The notes beneath the pieces are model-generated. The model was not told where the DNA came from. It searched no databases and was given only the letters and a program-made list of their open reading frames with translations. Both the position numbers and the translations under genes were made by a program. From Punctularia strigosozonata HHB-11173 SS5 (Eukaryota; Basidiomycota; Agaricomycetes; Corticiales; Punctulariaceae), in NCBI RefSeq assembly GCF_000264995.1, contig NW_006767433.1:3475521-3539520 (forward strand): DNA of 64,000 bases, read 5' to 3'. Positions 27,122 through 47,122 of this stretch are shown piece after piece. Within the stretch, counting starts at the first letter, position 1; every line of letters begins with the position of its first letter.

Positions 27122-27771
27122 CCCGCTCTTCCCGTGGGCTTCAGAACGAGGAGTAACACCGATCGCAGGAAACTAGTAGTGAGTCGTGTACAGTGCAACT
27201 CCGAACCGGAACGGACAAGCTGGACAGAGATGCAAGCCGACACCCACATAAGCCGTTGGCCTCTTGCAGAGTCAGACGGAGGACCGATGACGGAAAGTGG
27301 CTGTGCTTGGCCTCCTCTCCAGAAATATCGGTGTTGACGGGTACCTCTTCTGAGACCTGATTGCTTGTTCTCACCGTACCTGGGGGACATGTCCATGCCA
27401 CTATGCGGCTAGAGATGTACGCTTGTCTGTGAGAAATCTTGACGGAAAGCCCGCATCACTCAATATCCTGTTTGAGATCGAAACTTGCATTCGTTGTCCA
27501 CTGCCGACCTGTTTATTGGAAGCAATGGTGTGCTAAGCACCATGCTTGCTTCGTCTACCGACTCGGCATGAAGGATAGTTACTACTGGAAAGAACCTCCT
27601 CTGAAGTACGGTGGGAATCCGAGTCGGATGCGCACCCTGGTGCGATGATACCATAGCAGGCAGGTGCCTTTCCGCTTAGGGTAATGAACTACGCTGCTGA
27701 CCGCTCCGTCTCGGAACAGCAGCCACGAGCGTTGTAAGTACTTATATGCAGCCCATACAAAGTATCGGCTT
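26964..27771. repeat. Left copy of an 808-bp perfect direct duplication flanking the gap
   Basis: These 808 bases recur without a visible difference at 28052-28859, offset by 1088. The copy runs from the end of APL5 exon 1 through its start codon (27121) and the intergenic region right up to the first N. About 650 bases (27122-27771) are APL5 upstream sequence with no gene of their own. The perfect identity and the stop at the gap point to unmerged contig ends and not to a biological repeat. Confidence 0.85.
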
Positions 27772-28051
27772 NNNNNNNNNNNNNNNNNNNNNNNNNNNNN
27801 NNNNNNNNNNNNNNNNNNNNNNNNNNNNNNNNNNNNNNNNNNNNNNNNNNNNNNNNNNNNNNNNNNNNNNNNNNNNNNNNNNNNNNNNNNNNNNNNNNNN
27901 NNNNNNNNNNNNNNNNNNNNNNNNNNNNNNNNNNNNNNNNNNNNNNNNNNNNNNNNNNNNNNNNNNNNNNNNNNNNNNNNNNNNNNNNNNNNNNNNNNNN
28001 NNNNNNNNNNNNNNNNNNNNNNNNNNNNNNNNNNNNNNNNNNNNNNNNNNN
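27772..28051. other. Assembly gap (280 N)
   Basis: A run of 280 undetermined bases lies between the two identical 808-bp copies. Its true content may be zero or negative if the flanking copies are the same genomic segment. Confidence 0.98.
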
Positions 28052-28859
28052 ACATATGTAAGCTTCAAGATCGCGCCCGCCTTGAGCTCCATGTCCTTGC
28101 TTTTCACCTCCTTCCTGATCTCGTCCATAGCCTGCGCGATGAACTTGGCCTCATCCTTCTTATTAGCGCGTAAGCCGCGGATGAGATCTTGAAGCGTACG
28201 CTCCCACATCCCGCTCTTCCCGTGGGCTTCAGAACGAGGAGTAACACCGATCGCAGGAAACTAGTAGTGAGTCGTGTACAGTGCAACTCCGAACCGGAAC
28301 GGACAAGCTGGACAGAGATGCAAGCCGACACCCACATAAGCCGTTGGCCTCTTGCAGAGTCAGACGGAGGACCGATGACGGAAAGTGGCTGTGCTTGGCC
28401 TCCTCTCCAGAAATATCGGTGTTGACGGGTACCTCTTCTGAGACCTGATTGCTTGTTCTCACCGTACCTGGGGGACATGTCCATGCCACTATGCGGCTAG
28501 AGATGTACGCTTGTCTGTGAGAAATCTTGACGGAAAGCCCGCATCACTCAATATCCTGTTTGAGATCGAAACTTGCATTCGTTGTCCACTGCCGACCTGT
28601 TTATTGGAAGCAATGGTGTGCTAAGCACCATGCTTGCTTCGTCTACCGACTCGGCATGAAGGATAGTTACTACTGGAAAGAACCTCCTCTGAAGTACGGT
28701 GGGAATCCGAGTCGGATGCGCACCCTGGTGCGATGATACCATAGCAGGCAGGTGCCTTTCCGCTTAGGGTAATGAACTACGCTGCTGACCGCTCCGTCTC
28801 GGAACAGCAGCCACGAGCGTTGTAAGTACTTATATGCAGCCCATACAAAGTATCGGCTT
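28052..28859. repeat. Right copy of the 808-bp duplication, with a second APL5 first exon
   Basis: Identical to 26964-27771. It contains a second APL5 start (28209 on the minus strand) and about 52 codons of exon 1, which then run into the gap, so this partial gene copy is not functional as assembled. The copy ends 29 bases before the start codon of the MFS gene, so the real APL5-MFS intergenic distance is probably about 680 bases. Confidence 0.85.
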
Positions 28860-32996: not shown

Positions 32997-33834
32997 CTAT
33001 TCAATGGGAAGTCCAAGACTGGCTCGCTTGCAATGTCATACGGCGTCAGCGTTGTCACCCACATGGACGAGGCATGCTTACCAATTGCAGAACGTTTGCG
33101 CGCTCGGCAGGAGGCAGTCGATGAACTTCATCCAGAGGCATTTGGACTAGTCGCATCAGCATAGCCTAGAACGAATGGCCTCTTTCAGGCAAGGTCAACG
33201 TTTCAATGAGGAATTCGTGAACCTTCTGATCATCGGGCAAATTCACCAGCGCTTCAGGGAGGGCTGGTGGCGGTTGACTATATCTCGACGAGCCTGCCGC
33301 ATATGCACCCAAATTGAATTCCGGTTTTGGCTGAGTCACGACATTATACTGGTGATAAGTAGATGGGCCGGCTTCAGGCGGGTAATGTGTTGGTGGCCCA
33401 TATGGTGGGATGTTCTGTGGGAAAGGCGGTGCGTTCTGAGGAGTGGATTTGCGGGCTTGGGTGGCCACATGCGGTAACATGGTCGGCTGAGTAACAGGCG
33501 TCGATGTGGGTAGTTGGGTCTGAGTTGCACTGTAAGCGCCAAGCGTTTTCTGTAAAGGGAGAACATCTTGTAAACGATTCGAGCGCATGGAACGAACGAG
33601 GAAGCGCACAGTGAACACGTTGATATCCACCGCATTTAGCCTGACCATAATGGATATAAGCGCATATGCAATTTGGGGTTGCGCATTCAAGATGTTCCTA
33701 GCCTGATCTGGCGTCGTTTTCTGTCACCCAATCCGAGAGTTTGAGAATTTCATGTGTGCTCGCATGGACAAGGTAACCTTCAACGTTAACAGCAACTCTA
33801 TGAGCTGGTCTTCCGGAAGAGTCTGAAAAGCCAT
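32997..33834 (-). CDS. CstF-64/Rna15-like protein with hinge and C-terminal domain but no RRM
   Basis: Splicing gives MAFQTLPEDQLIELLLTLK|KTTPDQAR, then I-L-N-A-Q-P-Q-I-A-Y-A-L-I-S-I-M-V-R-L-N-A-V, the CSTF2 hinge domain that binds CstF-77/Rna14. A Pro/Thr/Tyr-rich linker follows. The C-terminus reads L-P-D-D-Q-K|A-M-L-M-R-L-V-Q-M, H-R-L-P-P-A-E-R-A-N-V-L-Q-L|R-A-S-L-G-L-P-I-E, matching the three-helix C-terminal domain that binds Pcf11. Both outer junctions are short introns, and the final exon encodes about nine residues. An RNA-recognition motif normally precedes the hinge, but the ATG at 33834 opens directly into it and nothing RRM-like lies upstream. It is inferred to act in mRNA 3'-end processing, perhaps as a scaffold or competitor. 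Confidence 0.82.
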
Positions 33835-34169
33835 TATTGTTCTCGTTGCACGAAATCCAGCGAGGTCAAGCTTTAAGCAATCGAAGTTGAGCACTGACTG
33901 CACAAGCGTCTCGATTGGAAGTGGTACGTCGTACGATCATGTGATTGAAGTCAATTCGAAATCACCGGGGCACCTGCATTCGGCCACATGCAATCTTGTT
34001 GCAGATTCCTTCACTACGCATGACCATCCGGACCGCCACATTCCGAAGACTAACTCACTCTTGGCCGTTGCTCCCAGCTTAGGAGACGAACATCATACAT
34101 GATTCTCTGGGCTTTCTATGAGACTCTTTCCCTTGCGCTGGACATCGTGAGTCATCCGTCCACTTCGAT
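33835..34169. other. Divergent intergenic region
   Basis: About 335 bases between the CstF-64-like start and the second PEBP copy. No gene is seen. Candidate start codons for the PEBP copy (34099, 34118) do not connect to it by a convincing intron. Confidence 0.4.
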
Positions 34170-35010
34170 TTGTGCACTCGGTGCACCATACTTGTGTTGG
34201 CGATTTGTATCGTCAATGTGCTGGGTTCGATATTCCTTCGTGTCTCCGGAGGTCCTGGACCTGCGGAAGCGGAAGCAGCATTCAGGGCAGCGAACCTGAC
34301 GCCGGCCGTCATACCCATCTTCGATCCTGTCGTATCTTTGGGCGTTGATTACACCATCAAAGGAACCGTGAAACGAGCAGTACTTGGTACTAATTTCACT
34401 ATGCCGGGTTCGTGTATAAGACAAATCGTCGACATTGATTACTGATGGGCGGCTTAGAGACTCCAACTAGACCCACTTGATCGATAGAGGGAGCTACGTC
34501 TATAGAGCCACACGAGACGTTCGTTATTGCGATGGTAAGGTCACAACAGGCGACCATGCGAATGCCATTGAAGGTCCTTCGTCAAGGTTGATCCCGATGC
34601 ACCGACGCCACAAGAGCCAACCAATGCCCAGATTCGACATTTCGTCGGCGGAGGCTTCATATTGGCCGGTCAACCTTCGAAAGCAGGAACACCACTGTAG
34701 GCGCTTGAACCCAGCTATAATTGGCGCTGGTTTGTTGAACATCGAATATTGCCAGGGTCAATATTACCCCAGCACTTTCGGAGTACCGCCAGCCTTCGCC
34801 TCCGAACACGTCCGACCCACATATCAATACATTCTTACTCTTCAAGCAACCACCAAACTTCCCTCAAAGCCTTGCAGCTGCCAATCTAACGTCCGACGTC
34901 ACGCTTTTCAATATCACTGCTTTTGCGGAGAAGCTTGGTCTAGAAATCCCCTAGCAGGAAACTTCTTGATCGTCAGTACCAATCCAAATGCAACCATCTT
35001 CGAACCCTGA
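34170..35010 (+). pseudogene. Second PEBP-family gene, apparently decayed
   Basis: The order of blocks copies that of the first PEBP gene: a hydrophobic leader (T-I-L-V-L-A-I-C-I-V-N-V-L-G), F-R-A-A-N-L-T-P-A-V-I-P-I-F-D-P, G-T-N-F-T-M-P, then V-D-P-D-A-P-T-P-Q-E-P with R-H-F-V-G-G-G-F, and L-L-F-K-Q-P-P-N-F-P-Q. Two defects are visible. No ATG starts the leader frame, which begins after a stop. Near 34950 the frame ending G-L-E-I-P meets a stop, while the expected continuation L-A-G-N-F-L-I-V-S lies in the next frame, as if one C were missing from the run of Cs. A sequencing error at that run is possible. Introns between blocks still look intact, so decay, if real, is recent. Confidence 0.6.
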
Positions 35011-35176: not shown

Positions 35177-38100
35177 ATGCCGCCTGTTGACGAGATCGAT
35201 TTCCGTGCACACATCCGGGATTGCCTGCTGGATTATGTACACTCCCATATCACTGTTGATTATCGGTCGTGGTCCTCCGGAGAAGTGACCCGGGTAGGAT
35301 TATCCTCTTTCAGTATGATGCAAGCCCAAGACGTTCTAGTTAGGTCCTCTCGCAATGCATATCGACTGTGCCCCTTGTGGAGAAATGCTCGATATACCGA
35401 CTGGCCGAGCCGTTCGACGTGTTGTATAAGGTTTTGCACCTTCACAACCTGGACGCGTATGACGAAGGATGGTCAGCACACCGCGAGGGTGTTGCACTAA
35501 TCAGGAGCACATTTTCTGCGGTGAAGAGGTCTCTTAGAAGCATGGTGCACTTACTGCAAGATGAAGAACGCAGGTTCCAATGTCTTGTCGTGGTTTCCGG
35601 TGGCCTGACTCGCTTCGCACAGTCGACGATATGCATTCGTACTATATGCCGGATCATCCAGTCCTCACTCGGGAATCCACCAAGAACAGCCTGAAGCTTG
35701 GCATAAAAAAGAAAGTCAATAGAATGCCCGAAGATCATATTGAAATGGTGAAGATGACTGGAATTCTGCGACTTCAGCCTCAGGACAGTGAGCCAAAGGA
35801 GGTGGTGATCGACCTGGAGACCTGCTTGTGCGCATCGTAATCCACACATCAGCTGCATAACTGCATAGTCCTGGCGCATATACGCGGGCGATTGTGCATA
35901 TATGTGTTCATTTTTGATCTGCACAGGAACCTACGGCCCACCATTGATCAGATTTTGCATCGCCATATCGTGCAGTATATGCAGACCATCCCGGCACTCA
36001 CTCCTGCTCCTCGGAGAGAAGAGCAATCGTCACTTCTGGTGTTGCATAACTCCTACGAACTCGCGGACGCGGATTTCCTTACAACCAAACACATGACTCC
36101 ACCCGTATTCTCACGGCTTCAGAATGCTTATTACTCCGGCACACGACAAAACCGAAACGACTCTTTCAATTACGACGCGGTCAAGGATCTGCTACTGCTT
36201 CCGAGTGCTAGTATAGAATCCGACTGCGAATTCCAAGAGCTTGTTGCGGAAGAGCAGCTGCGCGTCGCGGATGGCTCGCGTACGCGATTCCTCTCTGTAA
36301 ATCGTTGATCTAATAGGCCGTGCAGATGCATTTGCGCCTTTATCATCTCCATCCAGTCTTGATACGCTGTCGTTCGAGGACGATGCAACCTTGAACGACT
36401 TCTTGATCTCATCCTCCCCAGAGAGGCTAGCAACCGGCCCACTATTGGCGGATGCAGGATTTGGTACGCCGCCCTCTTGTGTGACGTTCATTTCAATTTA
36501 CCTCGTGCTTCAAGATACCATACTCGTTCCTCGTTCCAGAGAAATTGGCAGTTGCTTGAAGATGGTTCATCAACGGCATAGGTGAGCGATGTGGCTCCTC
36601 GTTCCACGCCCACGTAACTGGACCTCATATAATGTAGTCTACTGGAGCTTTGTGCAGACAACATCCCTAGCTTTCTCTCAAGGCTGAGCACATCTCCTCA
36701 ATCTCGAATCTCCTCCCCGAGGTCTTCTTCTACGTATGCCTGGCCCCCGTCGAATAAGCTCGGTGCACCAGAGAACTCGCCCTCGGAATTTCTTACCTTC
36801 GATGACACCCTCGTTTCCTTATACTCGGATATCCGCAAGCCTGATGCATCAGAGCTGAATATGAAGGACGAAGTTGAACAGCATGACGATTTATTCATGG
36901 AGGGTAACAGACCATGGTCTCATCCAAGAGGTGCTGGTAACTGACTCATTAACCTGTGCAGTTCCCCTTATCGCCGGCCCCAATCACAACAGCACTATCC
37001 GCGATGATCAGGCACAGTATCCCTCCTCTCTAACCGAGTTTCTGGCCCACAAGCCTACCGATATTCCCCTCGCTGACGATGCGACCTTTGAACGGGGACA
37101 GGATCGTGATGCTGCTCTGACGAGGCTCAATTCAAATATTCGGTTCTTGAAGAAAGCCAAAGGGATCCCTGCACTGAATGTCGAATTAAGCTGGAGGTAT
37201 CATATCAAGGTGCCGTGTCCTTGATTGGCATGTTGACGCGATGAGCAGACCATTCACGTATGGCCGATGTATCCCTACCAACGAAGAGGTTTCACAAGCA
37301 AATACTCTAACTACGGAGGAAACGCTTTCACTCTCGAGTACCCGGTACGACTCGGATCAGCGACAACCATATGCTGAACTGGAAACTCTGCTGTGCCACA
37401 TTACAGCTGTCAACGCTGAAGCGCCCACGGAGCAGAGGTCGCGATGCTTTTCCTGGGACAATGTGGAGAGCAGCGCTCTTCCAGGCCTCAGTGATATAAC
37501 TGAGACAGCGGCCACCAGAGCCGATCGGACATGGTTAACCGAGAATAGCCGACGTAGTATGGCCGACGTGTCATCAAGTGAGGGCGAGGAAGTCGACGAT
37601 GAAGCTCTCGATGGCAACCTAATGCCAGTCGAATGCATGCCACCTCACGATCTGCTCCAGGAAAATGTCGACTTCGCTGGTCAACGAACTCAGGACGACG
37701 CTGCCAACCCTCCACTTGAGGACATTCAGTGTGATACACCCCTATATTTGCCAGAGGACAAGTCATGGTTCTGCCTCGATGCTTCGTGTATCGAAACAAG
37801 GCACCTACCTGATATCATTCAAACCCAGGGCGGGATGATTATCATACAGGATAGCCCGGAGCACTCAGATTCTCCCCCGCACGAGTTTCCAAGCCGTGAT
37901 TCGTACAGCTCTCTGCGACAAACATTTGCAAATTGCAGCTCCACCCCCACTCCTGGTCTTCGTCATGCCACGGTAGAATCTACTTCGGGCGTAGCGCCTG
38001 AAAAGTACGAGTTACAACAAACGCTGTGCGGGTTCATGCAACTCCGTGCCGTTGCCGTGGAGGATGGCGTTCAAGAAGTGTCCTCTCCCAGCCCGAGTGC

Positions 38101-38972
38101 ATCCGCAACCACACCATCCGCGGTTGAAGCCCCATGTCCTGTCCTAGGCGTACCTGAAGAAGTTCTTGACAATAATACCCTGCAGCTAGCAGATGACTGG
38201 ACGCCGACTACTAACATGCATCGCTACCTCGCATCCATGGGGCTTGTGCAGAAAACTCTTGTCGCCCGTTTCCTGCAGTCTCACTACGCGGTCGCACTCA
38301 TAGAGCGCAGAGACTTAGGTGGCGTCGATCTCATCTTGGACCACCATACCGCCGTAGTTTACGTCTCCTTGCCGGCTTTACCATCTGACCATCGAAATCT
38401 GCTCGACATGCTGACTAGCATCTCTTGGCGATACTCGCATGTACTTGTCGTGTTCGAAGCTTTCCCTCCATCTTGCCTGTACAAAGCTCGAGACGACAAC
38501 TCTGGGGCTCTGCAACCGCGCGTGTTCTCGGCCCCTGTCGTACGAGCCATCAAGAAGCTGCGGAGAGATCTTGCTATCGCGTCTGCTTGTAACGAAAAGC
38601 GACCGGAGACAAACGTTCATTTCTCATTTGCGCAAAACGCGAAGGAGGCCGCGAAGTTAGCTCGCGCATTCGGTGATCTTGCAGAAGCGGCTGACGCTAC
38701 TGGGGTCATATGGGGCGACAGGGACTGGTTAGGAGACGACGAAAGAGAAGTAGGGATTCGTGCTCTTCACTGTTGCACGTCACTACACTCTCTTAACACC
38801 TTTCCGACAGGGAGAAACAGAACTAGCATCAGTACAGGGAATGAACGCACTTGCAGCCAATATAATATTATCACAGACAAGTCTCCAGTCATTCCTGAGA
38901 CTCACTGCCCAAGAAAGGATGCAGAATTATGGGGCTTTGCTCGGTCCTGACAGAATCGTGCGTCCAGCATGA
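35177..38972 (+). CDS. Putative meiotic crossover factor, SHOC1/ZIP2-like (XPF-like fold plus helix-hairpin-helix)
   Basis: One long multi-exon gene, roughly 1,000-1,100 residues. It starts M-P-P-V-D-E-I-D-F-R-A-H and continues through acidic, Ser-rich exons to a long exon at about 37241-38800. The C-terminal part contains V-A-L-I-E-R-R-D-L-G-G-V-D-L-I-L-D, V-V-Y-V-S-L-P-A-L-P and Y-S-H-V-L-V-V-F-E-A-F, which resemble the XPF nuclease fold. It lacks the full GDXnERKX3D active site. After an intron comes G-M-N-A-L-A-A-N-I-I-L-S-Q-T-S-L and F-G-like L-L-G-P-D-R-I-V, a helix-hairpin-helix pattern. XPF-like fold plus HhH after a large acidic N-terminus is the layout of SHOC1/Zip2. The stop is at 38972, but an intron from 38960 could extend the protein to 39179. 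Internal exon edges before 37000 are only approximate. Confidence 0.6.
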
Positions 38973-39187
38973 CCGGTAGTCCCCAGTTACTGATTGTATT
39001 CCAGGCGATATGCAACGGCTATATTCTACAGCGAGTTCTCGACACGGACCTGCCGCCCAGTTCTCCCTGGCAAACGGACAGCTCGGACAGCTCGGACATT
39101 CACAAGCACGGATATTCCTCCATTCAGAATGCACGATAGACCTACTCAACGTCATCGAAATGATCACGGATTATTCCTAGCTTAAAA

Positions 39188-42100
39188 TTATACAGGCGGC
39201 CTATTATCCTTCTGCGCTGCTCGATGTACATCAGTTACATGCTGAGCTGCCATGTGATGAATTCGTACTTACACATCGTGATCCGGTCCCCTAGAGAGAG
39301 GGCGATCCCTTGTGTTTTGCTGCGGATCCGCACGTGTCCCGTCAGTCCAATCTCCGTTCGCTCCACACTCAGGTTCGCGAGAGCATCTTCCCCTAGTTCG
39401 ATGTGAGCCTTGATCATCAGGAGTAGACATAAACTAATGTCACTAACCGAACAAACTCCGTGCGTACATGTTGGCGGACAAGAAGTCGCAGTCACCCGAG
39501 AGCGCCCCTTCTGGGGTCAGACATGACATATTCGTCGATTTCATGACATGTGCGAGGTAGTCCCGAGGTTCACTGTCGCAGTAATCAATCTACATTATCC
39601 CGTGATCGAGGCGTTGCATCTTACGATATGGTGGTAGTAACGTTTACTCTGTTCTCCCACTCGAACTCGGTCCACATGCTGCGGAACTGTAGACATCTCA
39701 GCGAACGCATGTAGAGGGGAAAACATCCGAGCAAACCTGTGCTTCGGTGCAGTATGCGGGCTTAATGTAGTCCATGATGTCGATGTGTATGTCGTTGAGG
39801 ATGACGCATGATTCTGACATGTTAGAGCCCTCCCATAATATGCTACCGAAAATGACGCCTGTCTCAGTGGAAGAGACCTATATACAATCATGAACGGAAA
39901 TTCGAGCGTAGAAAAAAGGTGCATGCCTTGATGGTCGCTTTGATACTCTGGAAGCTATGCGGGGCAATGGTGTACACTGTGGGTCGCTCGACAAGTTTGA
40001 GATCGCCCAGGGTTGCGAAGTCTAGGCATAGATTTTGCAAGGTATTCGCTGTCTGGTTAACAAGTAACACATCTGCAGAACGAGAAGAGGTCAAAAGGGA
40101 CTAGGAAAGGAAAGGGAAACAAGATACCAAGCACAATGTCGAAGCCTTGCACTTTGACATATGCCTCGGCGTATATAGGATCGGAGAAGCCTAATGTTAC
40201 ATGAGGAGACTTTCCAGGAGATGATAACATGACGTACCTGTTAGTTGCGTGATGCGACTGAGATTCGAGATGAAGTCCTCGCGAATTTCTGTGGCACCTG
40301 TCGCGCGTCCCAGGTCCTCTTCATACTGTATCCGACCGTTAAAATATGATGGTAACAGATGTGGTAGGAGGCACGCACGTCAATGACATCATCTGCAGCT
40401 TTCTTTGAGAATTGTCGAAAGGACAGTAGGTCATCGACCTGAATAATTGCTGCCTTGGAGCTCTCAGCCTCTTTCTTTTCTGCGGCTTTCTTCTGTTTTA
40501 TGCATTCAGTCACAAAATCCATTGCATGACGTGCTATGTCTTTTACCTCTTGCGCTGTCAACATCTTCGTGTAAGCCGATTTGGTATCCTGAAGGAAGGC
40601 CTTCTGTGCAGCAGGCTGATCTTGCAGCTCGCTCAATGTTTTCAGGCAGTCGAGGATGCGTTCTTGCGAATCTTCGTCAATCGGGTGGGCGACGTACTTC
40701 GACTGGCCAACTCGTATGATCGAGGCCATGATAAGCATTGCCTGCGCAGCGTGATGGTAAGTAACAGAGTAGGCTAGAGTCAGTGAGAGGGAAGTATCAC
40801 CTCTGCACGCAGACTGTTCGACGTCTTCCTATCATCTGAGGCAGCGGCAAAGCGTAACACAAGCTTGGTCAAGGCACTAGCAAGGATGGACGCGGTAAAA
40901 AAATCTCCGCCGAGGATAAGCGCTGGAGAAGCTTGATGAGTATGCAGAATATCAGGAGTATAGCGAACTGTACTTCTGAGCGGTGGCTTGAACGCAGATT
41001 TTCCGCTCGACTTCGGAATTGAGAATGCGGTCTCCGTTGCATAGGTGCCGTCCGCCAAGACTTTCGGCCGTCCGCCCTCCTTTTCCTTACTGTCGCCTTG
41101 CTCAGGGCCTTCAACGCCGTTGACCTCGTCTTCCGCTTTTTGTTCGCCGGCAAGAATGGGTATTTCACCAATAATCTTCCTCGTGGCCTTGAACACCTCT
41201 TCTACACCTGCGAGATCCTCTATATATTCTCCCAATATCCAGAGCACACCCCGGAATACCTTGGACGATTTAATCTCCGGGAGTGTTTCCACGAGGCGCG
41301 AGCAGATCGTTTCCCGAAGGTGAGGGAACTTCTCGACGACCTCTCGCACGAATGCTACCACATCCAGCGCCGATGGGTTATTCGAGTCTCCAAGGAAATC
41401 CATTAGCGCGTAGACCACACTTCCTGCTACTTCGGAGAACTTGATGGCGCAAACGTGTATCGATTGGATGAGAAGCTGCCTGTAGTCCGACGACTGCCCA
41501 ATCTAGTATCAGAGCGGTTACGCGGCGAGACCCATGTGGAAAATAACCTTATCAAAGTCCGCGTCCTGAGTTTTTTGAAGTTGTTTTTTCAAGAACAGAA
41601 CGACCTCTTCGACATTTCTGCTGGACGTCATGCTGAGAACAATTGCCAGCGCCTTCCGGCGAACCTCCATGTCAGGGCTTGACCCACAAATCAATGTGGA
41701 TGCCACACCGATTGATGATAATCACTAACCTTGACAGGACCTGCAGTACGTCTAGAATCAAGCTGTCCAAGACGTGACCATGTTTGGACCGCAGAACTTC
41801 CAGCCTATCTAATACAATAAGCTTGACGTTGTTGTCAGACTCTTTACATGCCAAGCTGATATAGCAGGATGCAGCAGCTGCGGGAGTCGCTGTCAATTAG
41901 TTCTCGCATCGCCAGTGATGCAACGAACCTTTGACCGCCGCCGCGTTCTGTGTGAGAGTCGTAAGAGTCGTAGCTGCTTCATACTTGACAGCATTAGAAG
42001 GCGCGGTGAGAAGCTCCAGTATGCATCGGATATAGCGCGCCCGGTGAGTTGAGTCCGTCTTGCAGTCCTGGCGAATGACCTCGATGATGCTCATTTGTAG

Positions 42101-42936
42101 CAGTTCGTCCATGTTGGATATCTGATCATACACCTGCAGGACATATTCCACCGCCTTCGGCATAGCGCAATTTGCGAGGAACACGAACGCGTTCCGCTTG
42201 CATGTTGCGTCAGATTCGGCAGCCAGGAACGTCTGCATGAGCTCTGGAGCATCCGGTATAAGGTGTTCAAACTGGCGATAGATGGTATAGATGGCGAATA
42301 CTGCGTTCTTCCGCACGTACGAGTGGCGGTGTTCGAGGCATGATCGGCAGACGGGAATGAGTGGTTCGAGGAGCTCGACGTCCTTGGAAAGCTTCGTCAG
42401 GAAACGCAGCGTTGCGCCCCGGATGTATTCGTTGGGATGTTGCTAGAAGCTAATCAGAGAAAAGGAGCGACGCCGTGCGCGTGAGCTCACCAGGTCGTTA
42501 CGAATGGCGTTGCTGGGGGTACGTCATCAGACTGCTATCGCCGCTGAAAGGGACGGTAACATACACCACTAGGATCATCTCCTGCTTGAGTTTGCCATTG
42601 TCGTCGTATTTAGGGCAAACTTCCCAATAGAAGTGTAGCAACTTCTTGAGTCTCTTGTCTTTGGACGGCATGACATATTGAATGACCGGCATGAGCATCT
42701 GAGGCTATATCAGAGTATATGAGCTCCGGTTTGGCTTTGCAGCATTCGCTCAAGGCGTCTGGCGTACATACCTGAGGATTTCCATTGATAGTCGAGACTA
42801 TGATCTTGCGCAACGTGTCAAACTTGACTTCGTCCGAGCCCTTTTGTAAAGCCGAGCGCAATTCTTGCACGGTGGGTACTTCATTGGAGTCATCGAAGAC
42901 GACCGTGTAGCATGAAGATTCCCCAGCGGTCGCCAT
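39188..42936 (-). CDS. SEC26: Coatomer (COPI) subunit beta
   Basis: The N-terminus is [14 protein letters not shown] with [14 protein letters not shown]. An adaptin-like HEAT trunk follows: [55 protein letters not shown]. The C-terminal domains have [17 protein letters not shown] and [15 protein letters not shown], matching beta-COP. The last intron leads to a short final exon giving [13 protein letters not shown]. About 15 introns. It is part of the COPI coat for Golgi-to-ER and intra-Golgi traffic. It is convergent with the SHOC1-like gene; if that gene uses its longer C-terminus the two stops are only about 9 bases apart. Confidence 0.94.
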
Positions 42937-43336: not shown

Positions 43337-44859
43337 TCATGAGGTCCGATGTACTACTTTCTCTGTCAACGCCTCCAGGGCACTCTTCGCCTCACTGTCC
43401 GGCAGCGGCTCTAGTACTTTCTTTGCTTGTTCGGCGTGGGCTATCGCCAATCTCCGCGTTCGTTCAACGCCAGAGGAACGGCGAACGAGTTCTGCGGCCT
43501 GAGAAACCAGAATATTCAATCGGCAGCAATCGCGAAGCCCGAATATCAGCCTCACCAACTCCACATCTCCCGTATGCTCGAATTTGCGGGCGATCAGAGG
43601 GCCCATTTCAGGGTGCTCCTCCCAAGCGTACAAGGCTGGTCCCGTTGCTAAACCAAGCTTTAGGTCGGCCCCACCCGGCTTGCCCATGGTCGACTCCTTC
43701 GCCTCGTAGTCCATGATATCATCGACCAGCTGCGTGCCTCTAAGTAAGCTGGCGCTAAGAGCACGTTGTTGAGGTATAGACTGACCTGGAACGCTAATCC
43801 GAGGTTGCGACCGTACGCGTAGGCTACCTCCTTCCAAATCTCGCCTTCCCTGCAACCACCCAGCACGACCGCGGCTCGTGAACCTTTTGCCATCAAACTC
43901 GCCGTCTTCAGATAGGTCTTCTTCATGTACATATTCCAATGTGCTTGCAGCACGGAACTCGGTTGCTCGCCATCCGCCAGCGCTGGAGCTGATTCCCGCG
44001 TCTTTTTCATTTGGATTATCTCGCCTTCAACCAAGTTTGAGATCACGCCGGCAATGAGCTCGGTGACCTCGTGCGACCCCAGACGAGATAGGGCTGCAGA
44101 AGCACGGCCAAGCAGGAAGTCTCCACCTAGGACAGAGACTTTGTTTCCAAACGCTTCTGGTGCTGACGGAGCTCCTCGACGGAGAGGGGACTTGTCGATG
44201 ACATCGTCGTGAAGAAGGGACGCAACATGGATCATTTCCACAATTTGGGACAGGCGGCTCTGAGTTGGCAAGATGAGCTGTGACGGGTCGAGGGCGCAAG
44301 GTAGGGACTTCACGTAGGCCGGAGGTTGAGGTAGTGGAGGTCGAGGAGAAGGATTGACCAAAGGAAAGACCTCCGAGAAGGAGCTGGTATGGTCTGGCAT
44401 ATTCGGATTCCAGTCGTTCAGCACATCGGAGCGCGTTAAGGGCGCGTTCAACTCTTCCGCCCGTCCCCCGGCCCCTTCACACTCCATCTTCCAACGCTCG
44501 AACCCCCAATCCGAGCCGAGTCCATTGGTCGCCCTGGCGAAGAGGAGAACAAGGAGAGGTCGTATTTGTTTGGAGGGATGCAAGAAGTAGTATTCTGCGA
44601 TTCGGTTGAGCGAGGGGTGCGAGGTGCCTAGCAAGCTCAGCAAAGTTTTTCGTAGGTGGTTGAGTTCGGGAGCGAGAATGGAGAAGGGGTCGACGCGCTT
44701 TGTAGACGCGTTTTGCGGGGGGATTTTGGGAGGGTTCGGCTGCTCTGGAATCTTGAGCTGTTCTGCAACGGCCGCATATGCTCGGTGGTGCCTTGAGCGC
44801 GCCCGAGCCCATAGCCTTGGCCGAGGCAGGTGCGCATAGGGGCGGGCGTATCGTTGCAT
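43337..44859 (-). CDS. COQ1: Polyprenyl diphosphate synthase for ubiquinone side chain
   Basis: The chosen start (44859, M-Q-R-Y-A-R-P-Y-A-H-L) gives an Arg-rich, acid-free leader suited to mitochondrial import; an in-frame ATG at 44952 would add 31 residues. The trans-prenyltransferase motifs are complete: K-Q-I-R-P-L-L-V-L-L near the start, first Asp-rich motif L-H-D-D-V-I-D-K-S-P-L-R-R-G, G-D-F-L-L-G-R-A, Y-L-K-T-A-S-L, and second Asp-rich motif Q|L-V-D-D-I-M-D-Y split by an intron. The protein ends A-L-T-E-K-V-V-H-R-T-S. It extends isopentenyl units to the long tail of coenzyme Q in mitochondria. A Pro-rich insert of about 60 residues sits between the first helices and the DDxxD motif. 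Confidence 0.93.
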
Positions 44860-45198
44860 GCCGCACAAATTATGAGGAGACCCAGTAGGAGGGCACGGCC
44901 CTGAGTAGAATAAACAGAGAGAAACCGCTGCGAGCCTGCGGATGACGAACACAGGAGGGAGACGTGCGAGTCGGTCGGGCGCGATCGTGGCGGGATTTCC
45001 AGCACGGCCATGTCGGCAATCCTCATACCGATTACTGACGTCGTCCTACTACTCCCGAACAGGGGCGAGGAGTGCGCTACTCTCTCAAGCGTGCGCAGCG
45101 GTGTGAGATGGAAGAGAATTGTATTCGAGTCCCAAAACATAAAACCAGAATTATGCGAGAGCAAGACAATACAACTTTTAGACAACCGCATGCGAGCC
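44860..45198. other. Intergenic, COQ1 promoter side
   Basis: About 340 bases between the COQ1 start and the calnexin stop on the same strand. Presumed COQ1 promoter plus calnexin 3' region. Nothing else is recognised. Confidence 0.45.
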
Positions 45199-47122
45199 CT
45201 ACTTGCGCTTCGTCACGTTCAACTCTTTCTTCTTCTCCTCGCCAGCCGGTGCGACAGGCGCAGTCTCAGTCTTCTTGGCATCATCTGGTGTTGGCGCATC
45301 GGTCTTCTTAGAGGACTGGTCGTGGTTAAATTAGCACGTGCTGACGGTATTAAAATCGAGATCAATCGGCTCACCTTCGTGATTGGCTTCTGAGCGCCTC
45401 CAACGAGGCCAACGAGAGACGCAAGCATGCCGAGGAAAGTCAGCGTCACGCCGAGTAGAGCAGCGCCAGTCTCAGGGTGAGACTTGAAGGCGAGAACAGG
45501 GTCCAGCTTTGCTTGTTCAATGAAGGTTATGACCTTGTAGCGGATGAACGCCGTCGGATTTTCCGAGAATGAAGGAACTTCTTCCTCCTCCTCGTCATCG
45601 ACAACAGCCTTCTTGGCAGTTTCGAGAGGCTTCTTGACGAAGAACGTCTCCTCAGCGAGTTTGCGTGCCTCCTCAGGCGAGTGGCCAACGTAGATGTTGT
45701 CGAAAAGGATGTCCTCGGTCATGGTCCAGAGCTCGATACCGACTCCGCCGATCTTGTTAAGACTTTGCGCCGGGTGCGAATCCTCGAAGTAATCGGGGTT
45801 GGGAATCTTGCGAGGAGCCCATTCACCCTTGTACGCCGGGTTGTCAATCATCGGGGCGTACCACTTGCCCTTGTATGCCGGGTTAGCCTTGTAGGGGCTA
45901 CAGCGATGTATTTAGTCAGGATCCCGGGACATCAATAGGAACAGAACGTACCGCTTCCATTCACCACATCCCGGAGCTTCGTCGCACTTCGGGTTGCGAA
46001 CCATTGGCGGAATCCAGTCGCCGTCCTCCTCGTCGTCCCATTCCTCGGGCTTCTCCGAGTCCGGATCAGGTATAGTCTCGGGCTCATCGTCCAGCCAGCC
46101 CTCAGGCTTGACAGCGTCCTCGTCGGGGATCTCATACGGCGCATCTTCGTCCCAATCTTCGGGCTTCCTCGCCTCGGGATCGGCGATCCTCTTCTCATCC
46201 ACCCAGTCCTCGGGTTTCTTATCTTCAGGGTCGTCGATCTCTTTCGGAGGGTTAACCGAGGGCTTGAAGTCTTCGAGCAGGCTTCCAGTGTTGTGGCTCT
46301 CGCCGTTAAACAGGACATCATAGGTGTTGTTCTGAGGGCTGGGGTACCTCAACTCAGCGCACGCACGCAACAGTACCCGCGAGAGTACTCACTAGACAAC
46401 GAGAGTATACAGGTTGGTGGTCTTCTCAATCGAAGGCTTAGGAGGCTGGGCCAGATGCTTCTCCTCATACTCGCCAGTGATGGGGTTCTTGTGCCGGAAG
46501 ATGAAGTGAACCTATGGATACATAGCGATCAGCACTCGTGCAATGGATATATCCCATGCGGAATACGTACCTTCGTGCCTGGGCAGGTCAAATCAGGGCC
46601 AAACATCACGACCCACGGCGTCTTGTCCTCGAACTCCTTGCCGCTAGTCTGGAATCCATCCTCGAGCAACTTGAGGTAACCACCGCCGCAGTTGCCGCCC
46701 TTTTGGTACTTGACCTCGTATTGGACAACGAGCGGTTCGTCTTTGAAGGAAAGGGGAGCCTTGAAAGGAGCGGAGATTGCGTGGTGGGCAGCCTTGGACT
46801 TCGCCACGAGACCCTTGTCGCCCTCGATGATAACCTCCAGGGGCTCCTCGACCTCCCACTTGCCGACGTAACTAAACGTTTCGCCACCAACGGGAGTCTT
46901 CTTCGTTGCCTCCGAGACTGTCCAGCGCTGGGACCAATCGTCGGTGAACTGCTCAAGGAAGGGTGCCTTGATCTCGGTGGGCTATCATGGACTTCCGTCA
47001 GCGTGTACACGCGCTTCTGGGGTGCGGACGTATACTACCTTGAAGGTGGGCTTCGGCTCCTCCGCCGCGGCTAGGCCGGCAGCGGCGAGCGTCAGAGCCG
47101 TCGAGAACGCTACTGCTCGCAT
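45199..47122 (-). CDS. CNX1: Calnexin (ER lectin chaperone)
   Basis: Start at 47122 with signal peptide [20 protein letters not shown]. The lectin domain has [16 protein letters not shown] and [16 protein letters not shown], with carbohydrate-site and cysteine features of the family. The P-domain repeats are clear ([36 protein letters not shown]), followed by the second repeat type ([22 protein letters not shown]). One transmembrane helix near the end ([15 protein letters not shown]) precedes a Lys-rich cytosolic tail ending N-V-T-K-R-K. The membrane helix separates it from calreticulin. It folds N-glycoproteins in the ER. About six introns. Confidence 0.95.

Follow-up and report, generated by a model that had tools for sequence, protein, structure and literature searches.

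Does the genome of the basidiomycete Punctularia strigosozonata carry a gene for SHOC1/Zip2, and would such a gene be recognisable? SHOC1/Zip2 proteins govern the interfering class of meiotic crossovers, diverge fast and are easily missed. The locus in question lies in a stretch of 64,000 nucleotides from strain HHB-11173 SS5 (assembly GCF_000264995.1, contig NW_006767433.1, positions 3,475,521 to 3,539,520 of the forward strand), which is called the window here and to which all coordinates refer. An initial annotation, made from the letters of this DNA, had proposed that a long spliced gene on the + strand at 35177-38972 encodes a homologue of this family. The analysis reported here indicates that the gene very probably does encode a fast-diverging SHOC1/Zip2 homologue, and that its core is collinear with the core of Arabidopsis SHOC1 (AtSHOC1).

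Similarity of the core to Arabidopsis SHOC1

The sequences of AtSHOC1, the sole SHOC1 protein compared, and of PTD were taken from a table in PMC9957857. The core of the window protein, residues 865-1107, consists of an XPF-like region followed by a helix-hairpin-helix (HhH) part. Its local alignment to the AtSHOC1 core scored 75.5, whereas shuffled sequences averaged 35.7 with a standard deviation of 6.6 (Z 6.0). Six in 60,000 full shuffles scored as high, none did in 20,000 confined to ten-residue windows, and the reversed control scored 30.5. Under 12 matrix and gap settings Z stayed between 3.7 and 6.1, with 0-8 of 3000 shuffles reaching the score. When the XPF-like part of either protein was paired with the HhH part of the other, no signal rose above shuffles, and among 25 segment pairs across both proteins the core-core pair had the highest Z (5.9; the next was 3.6).

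The match was also set against 89 decoy chunks, composed of the stop-to-stop frames of the window, AtMSH4, AtZIP4 and the remainder of AtSHOC1. It exceeded all of them: the highest Z of a decoy was 4.4 with the window core (mean 0.5), and none was above 3.9 with the AtSHOC1 core. Human XPF (Z 2.4), PTD (0.0) and two bacterial ERCC4 proteins (-0.6 and 1.0) all fell inside the decoy range when compared with the window core.

Most of the signal comes from the HhH part, which alone matched AtSHOC1 with Z 9.1 (0 of 20,000 shuffles); the two HhH regions compared with each other gave Z 9.3 (0 of 5000) and share the block LTSISWRYSHVLVVFEAFP in the window and LTSLSFSFSTCIMVFEGEP in AtSHOC1. The HhH-like segment of the initial annotation is supported by this sequence similarity (Z about 9), together with a match to the Pfam family SAM_6 on exon 10. 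With Z values of 0.8-1.25, the window HhH region did not match those of human XPF, PTD and the two ERCC4 proteins; its AtSHOC1 counterpart does reach human XPF (Z 4.7) and PTD (Z 3.6). As far as these alignments go, the link of the gene to the XPF superfamily is one that runs via SHOC1 and not a direct one. Because the core and the HhH part exceed both shuffles and decoys, the sequence supports the SHOC1/Zip2 assignment, chiefly through the HhH part.

Gene structure and the N-terminal part

The gene was reconstructed as follows, with splice sites picked by hand; exons 1-9 rest on this hand splicing.

35177..39139, + strand: whole coding gene, 11 exons, 1136 residues; ATG at 35177, stop TAG at 39137-39139 (hand splicing and a codon-use check of the frame)
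35177..35293, + strand: exon 1
35344..35581, + strand: exon 2, with a weak-looking donor, GTCTTG
35623..35836, + strand: exon 3
35927..36279, + strand: exon 4
36326..36463, + strand: exon 5
36515..36581, + strand: exon 6, in a frame not preferred by codon use
36638..36903, + strand: exon 7
36962..37196, + strand: exon 8
37249..38749, + strand: exon 9, long, with an acidic linker and the XPF-like region (also from sequence)
38213..38749, + strand: XPF-like region without the ERK triad, from residue 865 (comparison with the AtSHOC1 core)
38811..38957, + strand: exon 10, first HhH region, with the SAM_6 match (30.8 bits) and the AtSHOC1 HhH similarity
39005..39139, + strand: exon 11, probably encoding a second hairpin and the C-terminus, beyond the interval first proposed (intron 38958-39004)

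A single frame runs from the ATG through ten introns of 41-90 nucleotides, all GT-AG. The multi-exon structure that had been proposed therefore stands, and the end at 38972 probably does not: a stop is met there only when splicing skips the donor at 38958 and the intron 38958-39004 is retained. Both splice sites of this intron, the donor GTGCGT and the acceptor TTCCAG (ATTGTATTCCAG), are plausible, and exon 11 would give the second hairpin; 39139 is therefore the most likely end of the gene, with 38972 kept as the alternative. The second hairpin itself has little sequence support.

The first 864 residues stand ahead of the core and are acidic, with a net charge of -61 (D/E 15.5%, K/R 8.4%); residues 865-1041 are neutral. 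The large acidic N-terminus of the initial annotation was confirmed in this way; its poor conservation was examined by comparison with AtSHOC1 only, where matching N-terminal segments did not exceed shuffles. For residues 1-200 of both proteins, 99 of 600 shuffles reached the score, and a likeness of PVDEIDF...VDYR to AtSHOC1 57-84 (BLASTP E value 1.0) was dropped. Off the diagonal, residues 1-200 and 1-420 of the window protein gave Z 3.6 (4 of 600 shuffles) and 3.1 (6 of 600) with AtSHOC1 400-700; among 25 overlapping pairs these were judged to be chance.

The exons might belong to two genes, or to a decayed one, with an N-terminal part unrelated to the core, an explanation that is compatible with a SHOC1-type core but improbable as a whole. 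It would account for the N-terminal part having no significant likeness to that of AtSHOC1, and the splice sites were, after all, chosen by hand. Codon use bears on it both ways: judged by a training set of 1870 codons from eight reading frames that lie nearby on the opposite strand, the chosen frame was preferred among the three + strand frames in 9 of 11 exons, the exceptions being the 67-nucleotide exon 6 and the 135-nucleotide exon 11. Against a composite gene also stands the one open frame through 11 exons and ten GT-AG introns.

Active site and relation to XPF-family proteins

The three peptides quoted in the initial annotation are all present on the + strand, IERRDLGGVDLILD at 38300-38341, VVYVSLPALP at 38354-38383 and GMNALAANIILSQTSL at 38838-38885. 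The XPF-type region was said to lack the complete catalytic motif, and this agrees with what was found: inspection of the XPF-like region revealed no ERK, and the GDXnERKX3D active site of active XPF/ERCC4 nucleases is absent, as is a Pfam ERCC4 match. The ERK triad is missing in SHOC1/Zip2 as well. In one alignment VDLILDHHTAVVYVS of the window stands opposite VDLMLSPAVCLLWYD of AtSHOC1, and when GDYILTPEMCVERKS of XPF is overlaid by eye on that register, one aspartate is retained and E-R-K is replaced by V-Y-V. The ERR in the first quoted peptide precedes the active-site position, and its AtSHOC1 counterpart is ERD.

A protein of this kind could be another non-catalytic subunit of the XPF family, of the Eme1/Mms4 or ERCC1/Rad10 type or FAAP24-like, which would act in repair with a catalytic partner and not as a meiotic ZMM protein. 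The layout is common to XPF-family pseudo-nucleases, and the direct comparisons were with AtSHOC1, XPF, PTD and ERCC4 proteins, not with Eme1, ERCC1 or FAAP24. However, the similarity goes to AtSHOC1 rather than to human XPF, PTD or the two ERCC4 proteins, and the long part ahead of the core suits SHOC1, which has 1594 residues in the plant and, according to the accessible text of one report, 1481 in mouse (PMC6155065). Such a repair subunit is accordingly rated unlikely.

Points against the assignment

Several results weigh against a SHOC1/Zip2 homologue. First, at the level of whole proteins the two sequences do not find each other: the best BLASTP stretch against AtSHOC1 was of 21 residues with an E value of 0.28, the rest being at 1 or above, and the full-length local alignment did not exceed shuffles (369 of 500). 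Under stricter settings the core-core match was weaker, with 7 of 2000 shuffles reaching the score in local and 170 of 2000 in global mode. Second, the XPF-like part alone gave Z 3.2 with AtSHOC1 (166 of 20,000 shuffles), inside the decoy range (up to 4.4). In these comparisons the complete core exceeds the decoys, and so does its HhH part, but not the XPF-like part by itself. Third, the register at the active site relies on omitting a 15-residue loop of AtSHOC1; with the loop included, the strand was aligned elsewhere. Confidence in the SHOC1/Zip2 assignment is slightly lowered by the last two points.

Fourth, profiles of the XPF family did not recognise the core. A hidden Markov model of human XPF and two plasmid ERCC4 proteins scored no better on the core than shuffles did: of 2000 shuffles each, 72 reached the score of the core, 303 that of the whole protein and 579 that of the reversed core. 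The sequences of this run contained a stray stop character close to their ends. An hhalign comparison with human XPF and four bacterial ERCC4 proteins gave 41 of 300 shuffles locally and 226 of 300 globally. Fifth, the Pfam scans of the protein and its pieces returned no match to ERCC4, DUF7102 or DUF5587, and SAM_6 stayed under its cut-off when the whole protein (21.3 bits) or any of three pieces of 157-285 residues was scanned. Sixth, AlphaFold2 models from single sequences did not resemble the expected folds: the XPF-like exon reached a predicted local distance difference test (pLDDT) score of 43, and its best Foldseek match had an E value of 0.054, with no XPF-family chain among the 50 of 805 matches listed; the HhH exon alone was modelled as one long helix (pLDDT 89.9) with no hairpin, and Foldseek found no match for it.

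By the terms of the initial annotation, failure to find an XPF or HhH match by profile or by structure would speak against its proposal. For the XPF part the outcome was negative, the profiles being null and the fold search giving none among the matches listed; for the HhH exon it was the single helix. Since an XPF-family profile searched against the PDB retrieved chains of XPF, FANCM, MUS81, ERCC1 and FAAP24 and no Zip2 in the 60 of 71 matches listed, and since the models came from single sequences, these are judged to be weak tests that carry little weight either way. Sequence searches of the PDB yielded chance-level matches only (E value at least 0.53; one for the long exon, two for the core and one for a two-sequence profile of the core and AtSHOC1).

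Relatives of the gene were absent from a genome-contig and a viral-contig collection, neither of which is fungal; ERCC4 relatives were found at three loci of the former and none of the latter. Separately, 149 plasmid records (e.g., NZ_CP049142.1, locus L001) carry ERCC4-HhH proteins like human XPF; Pseudomonas accounts for 133 of the records, and in 145 of the 149 the match spans 80% or more of the XPF query, at identities below 60%.

Pfam families SAM_6 and DUF7102

SAM_6 (PF23395, "SAM-like domain") matched the 72-residue frame containing the HhH exon with an E value of 3.4e-7 and 30.8 bits, the curated cut-off being 27 bits. Over ten matching scanned pieces, six were above the cut-off (46-93 residues, 28.1-30.8 bits) and four below it (157-1136 residues, 21.3-26.8 bits). 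Human XPF, scanned likewise, matched ERCC4 above cut-off (E value 8.7e-34), with HHH_5 slightly below its own. Weak matches of the window protein to YkoP, Arnt_C, DUF7096 and GHL13 (E values 0.032-0.2) were treated as chance.

SAM-like and HhH domains are related folds. That the gene encodes a SAM-like-domain protein of other, unknown role, resembling the XPF-like part of SHOC1 by chance, is the least probable of the explanations considered, for even though SAM_6 is the sole family match above the Pfam cut-off, the XPF profile tests were null and the XPF-like part alone lies in the decoy range, the SAM_6 match covers the very residues that match the SHOC1 HhH region (0 of 20,000 shuffles), and the preceding exon aligns in the correct order with the XPF-like part of SHOC1.

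SAM_6 and DUF7102 (PF23394) are adjacent by Pfam number, and their models, of 78 and 176 positions, approximate the (HhH)2 and the XPF-like domain in size; SAM_6 falls on the HhH exon, and the length of DUF7102 is close to that of the XPF-like region, whereas the scans of the window gene gave no DUF7102 match. Both families are presumably fungal and co-occur in the same proteins, and to our knowledge neither has an assigned function. It is reasonably likely, if well short of assured, that DUF7102 represents the XPF-like domain of the fungal SHOC1/Zip2 family, and SAM_6 its HhH domain. DUF5587 (PF17825, 1449 positions), which we take to be the vertebrate SHOC1 family, is weakly matched at positions 1043-1100 by the AtSHOC1 HhH region (E value 0.017; three shorter pieces gave 0.075-0.1 or none), in agreement with that assumption. 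None of the 14 control genomes matched the SAM_6, DUF7102 or DUF5587 profile, and these genomes are thus uninformative.

Probable place among known crossover factors

In the portions available of three reports, Zip2/SHOC1 is described as an XPF-like domain with (HhH)2; human SHOC1 binds branched DNA and, assayed in vitro, did not act as a nuclease; yeast Zip2 contacts Spo16 through its XPF-like domain and Zip4 through its N-terminal part; and the Zip2-Spo16-Zip4 complex keeps early joint molecules stable on the way to class I crossovers (PMC5962103, PMC6155065, PMC13245411). Pairing of SHOC1 with SPO16 in humans was, as far as the same material goes, not observed (PMC13245411). The window gene resembles SHOC1/Zip2/MZIP2 (ZMM, ZZS complex) in having an XPF-like region and then HhH, no ERK triad and a long part ahead of the core, besides its direct similarity to AtSHOC1. 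It differs in being too diverged for whole-protein BLASTP and in stopping soon after the HhH region, whereas AtSHOC1 continues for more than 400 residues past the core. With XPF/Rad1, Mus81 and the bacterial ERCC4 nucleases it would share the fold and the domain order, but unlike them it has no ERK triad and no significant profile match.

By analogy with these proteins, the gene product is most likely a nuclease-dead XPF-like protein that has a Spo16-like partner and promotes class I crossovers. Its core would fold as an inactive ERCC4-type domain plus (HhH)2, pair with a Spo16/PTD-like protein in a yeast-like arrangement and bind branched DNA, such as D-loops and Holliday junctions, without cutting it, and the N-terminal part may engage a Zip4-like protein. 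Early joint molecules would thereby be stabilised and steered into class I (interfering) crossovers in meiotic cells.

A SHOC1/Zip2 gene in a fungus is to be expected, because fungal SHOC1 homologues have already been reported (Macaisne 2008, as quoted in the accessible part of PMC5962103). In the text covered by the literature searches, no description of a meiotic SHOC1/Zip2 in a basidiomycete was found, and the mentions of Zip2 in the basidiomycete passages retrieved referred to a zinc transporter, the budding-yeast protein or an entry in a reference list. For Flammulina, the retrieved text lists homologues of zip4, msh4 and msh5, not of zip2/SHOC1 (PMC7567395), and the main text of a Coprinopsis meiosis paper (PMC2944786) contains none of the words Zip2, Zip4, ZMM, Spo22 and Msh4.

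Neighbouring genes

Several other genes are recognisable around the locus. On the - strand, Adaptin_N matches in two frames at 40780-42442 probably mark a coatomer or adaptor subunit, which appears convergent with the SHOC1-like gene; a match to the CSTF2 hinge domain at 33166-33723 identifies a homologue of cleavage stimulation factor subunit 2; and a polyprenyl synthetase gene adjoins a calreticulin-family (calnexin-like) gene at 43660-45911. Upstream on the + strand, short spliced-looking frames at 34122-34954 are perhaps a small separate gene, the piece 34739-34954 having no Pfam match. The window contains unknown bases, an assembly gap, at about 27750-28100.

Implications

The window gene is very probably a further example of the fungal SHOC1 homologues already reported, and it may be tied to a Pfam family that has no assigned function. 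A member placed in this lineage would provide a target for gene removal in a mushroom model. It would also offer a route to naming an uncharacterised Pfam family and hint at the role of that family. If DUF7102 and SAM_6 are indeed the two domains of fungal SHOC1/Zip2, the ZZS crossover machinery would become traceable in fungi that lack such annotation, and this gene would serve as a bridge to plant SHOC1.

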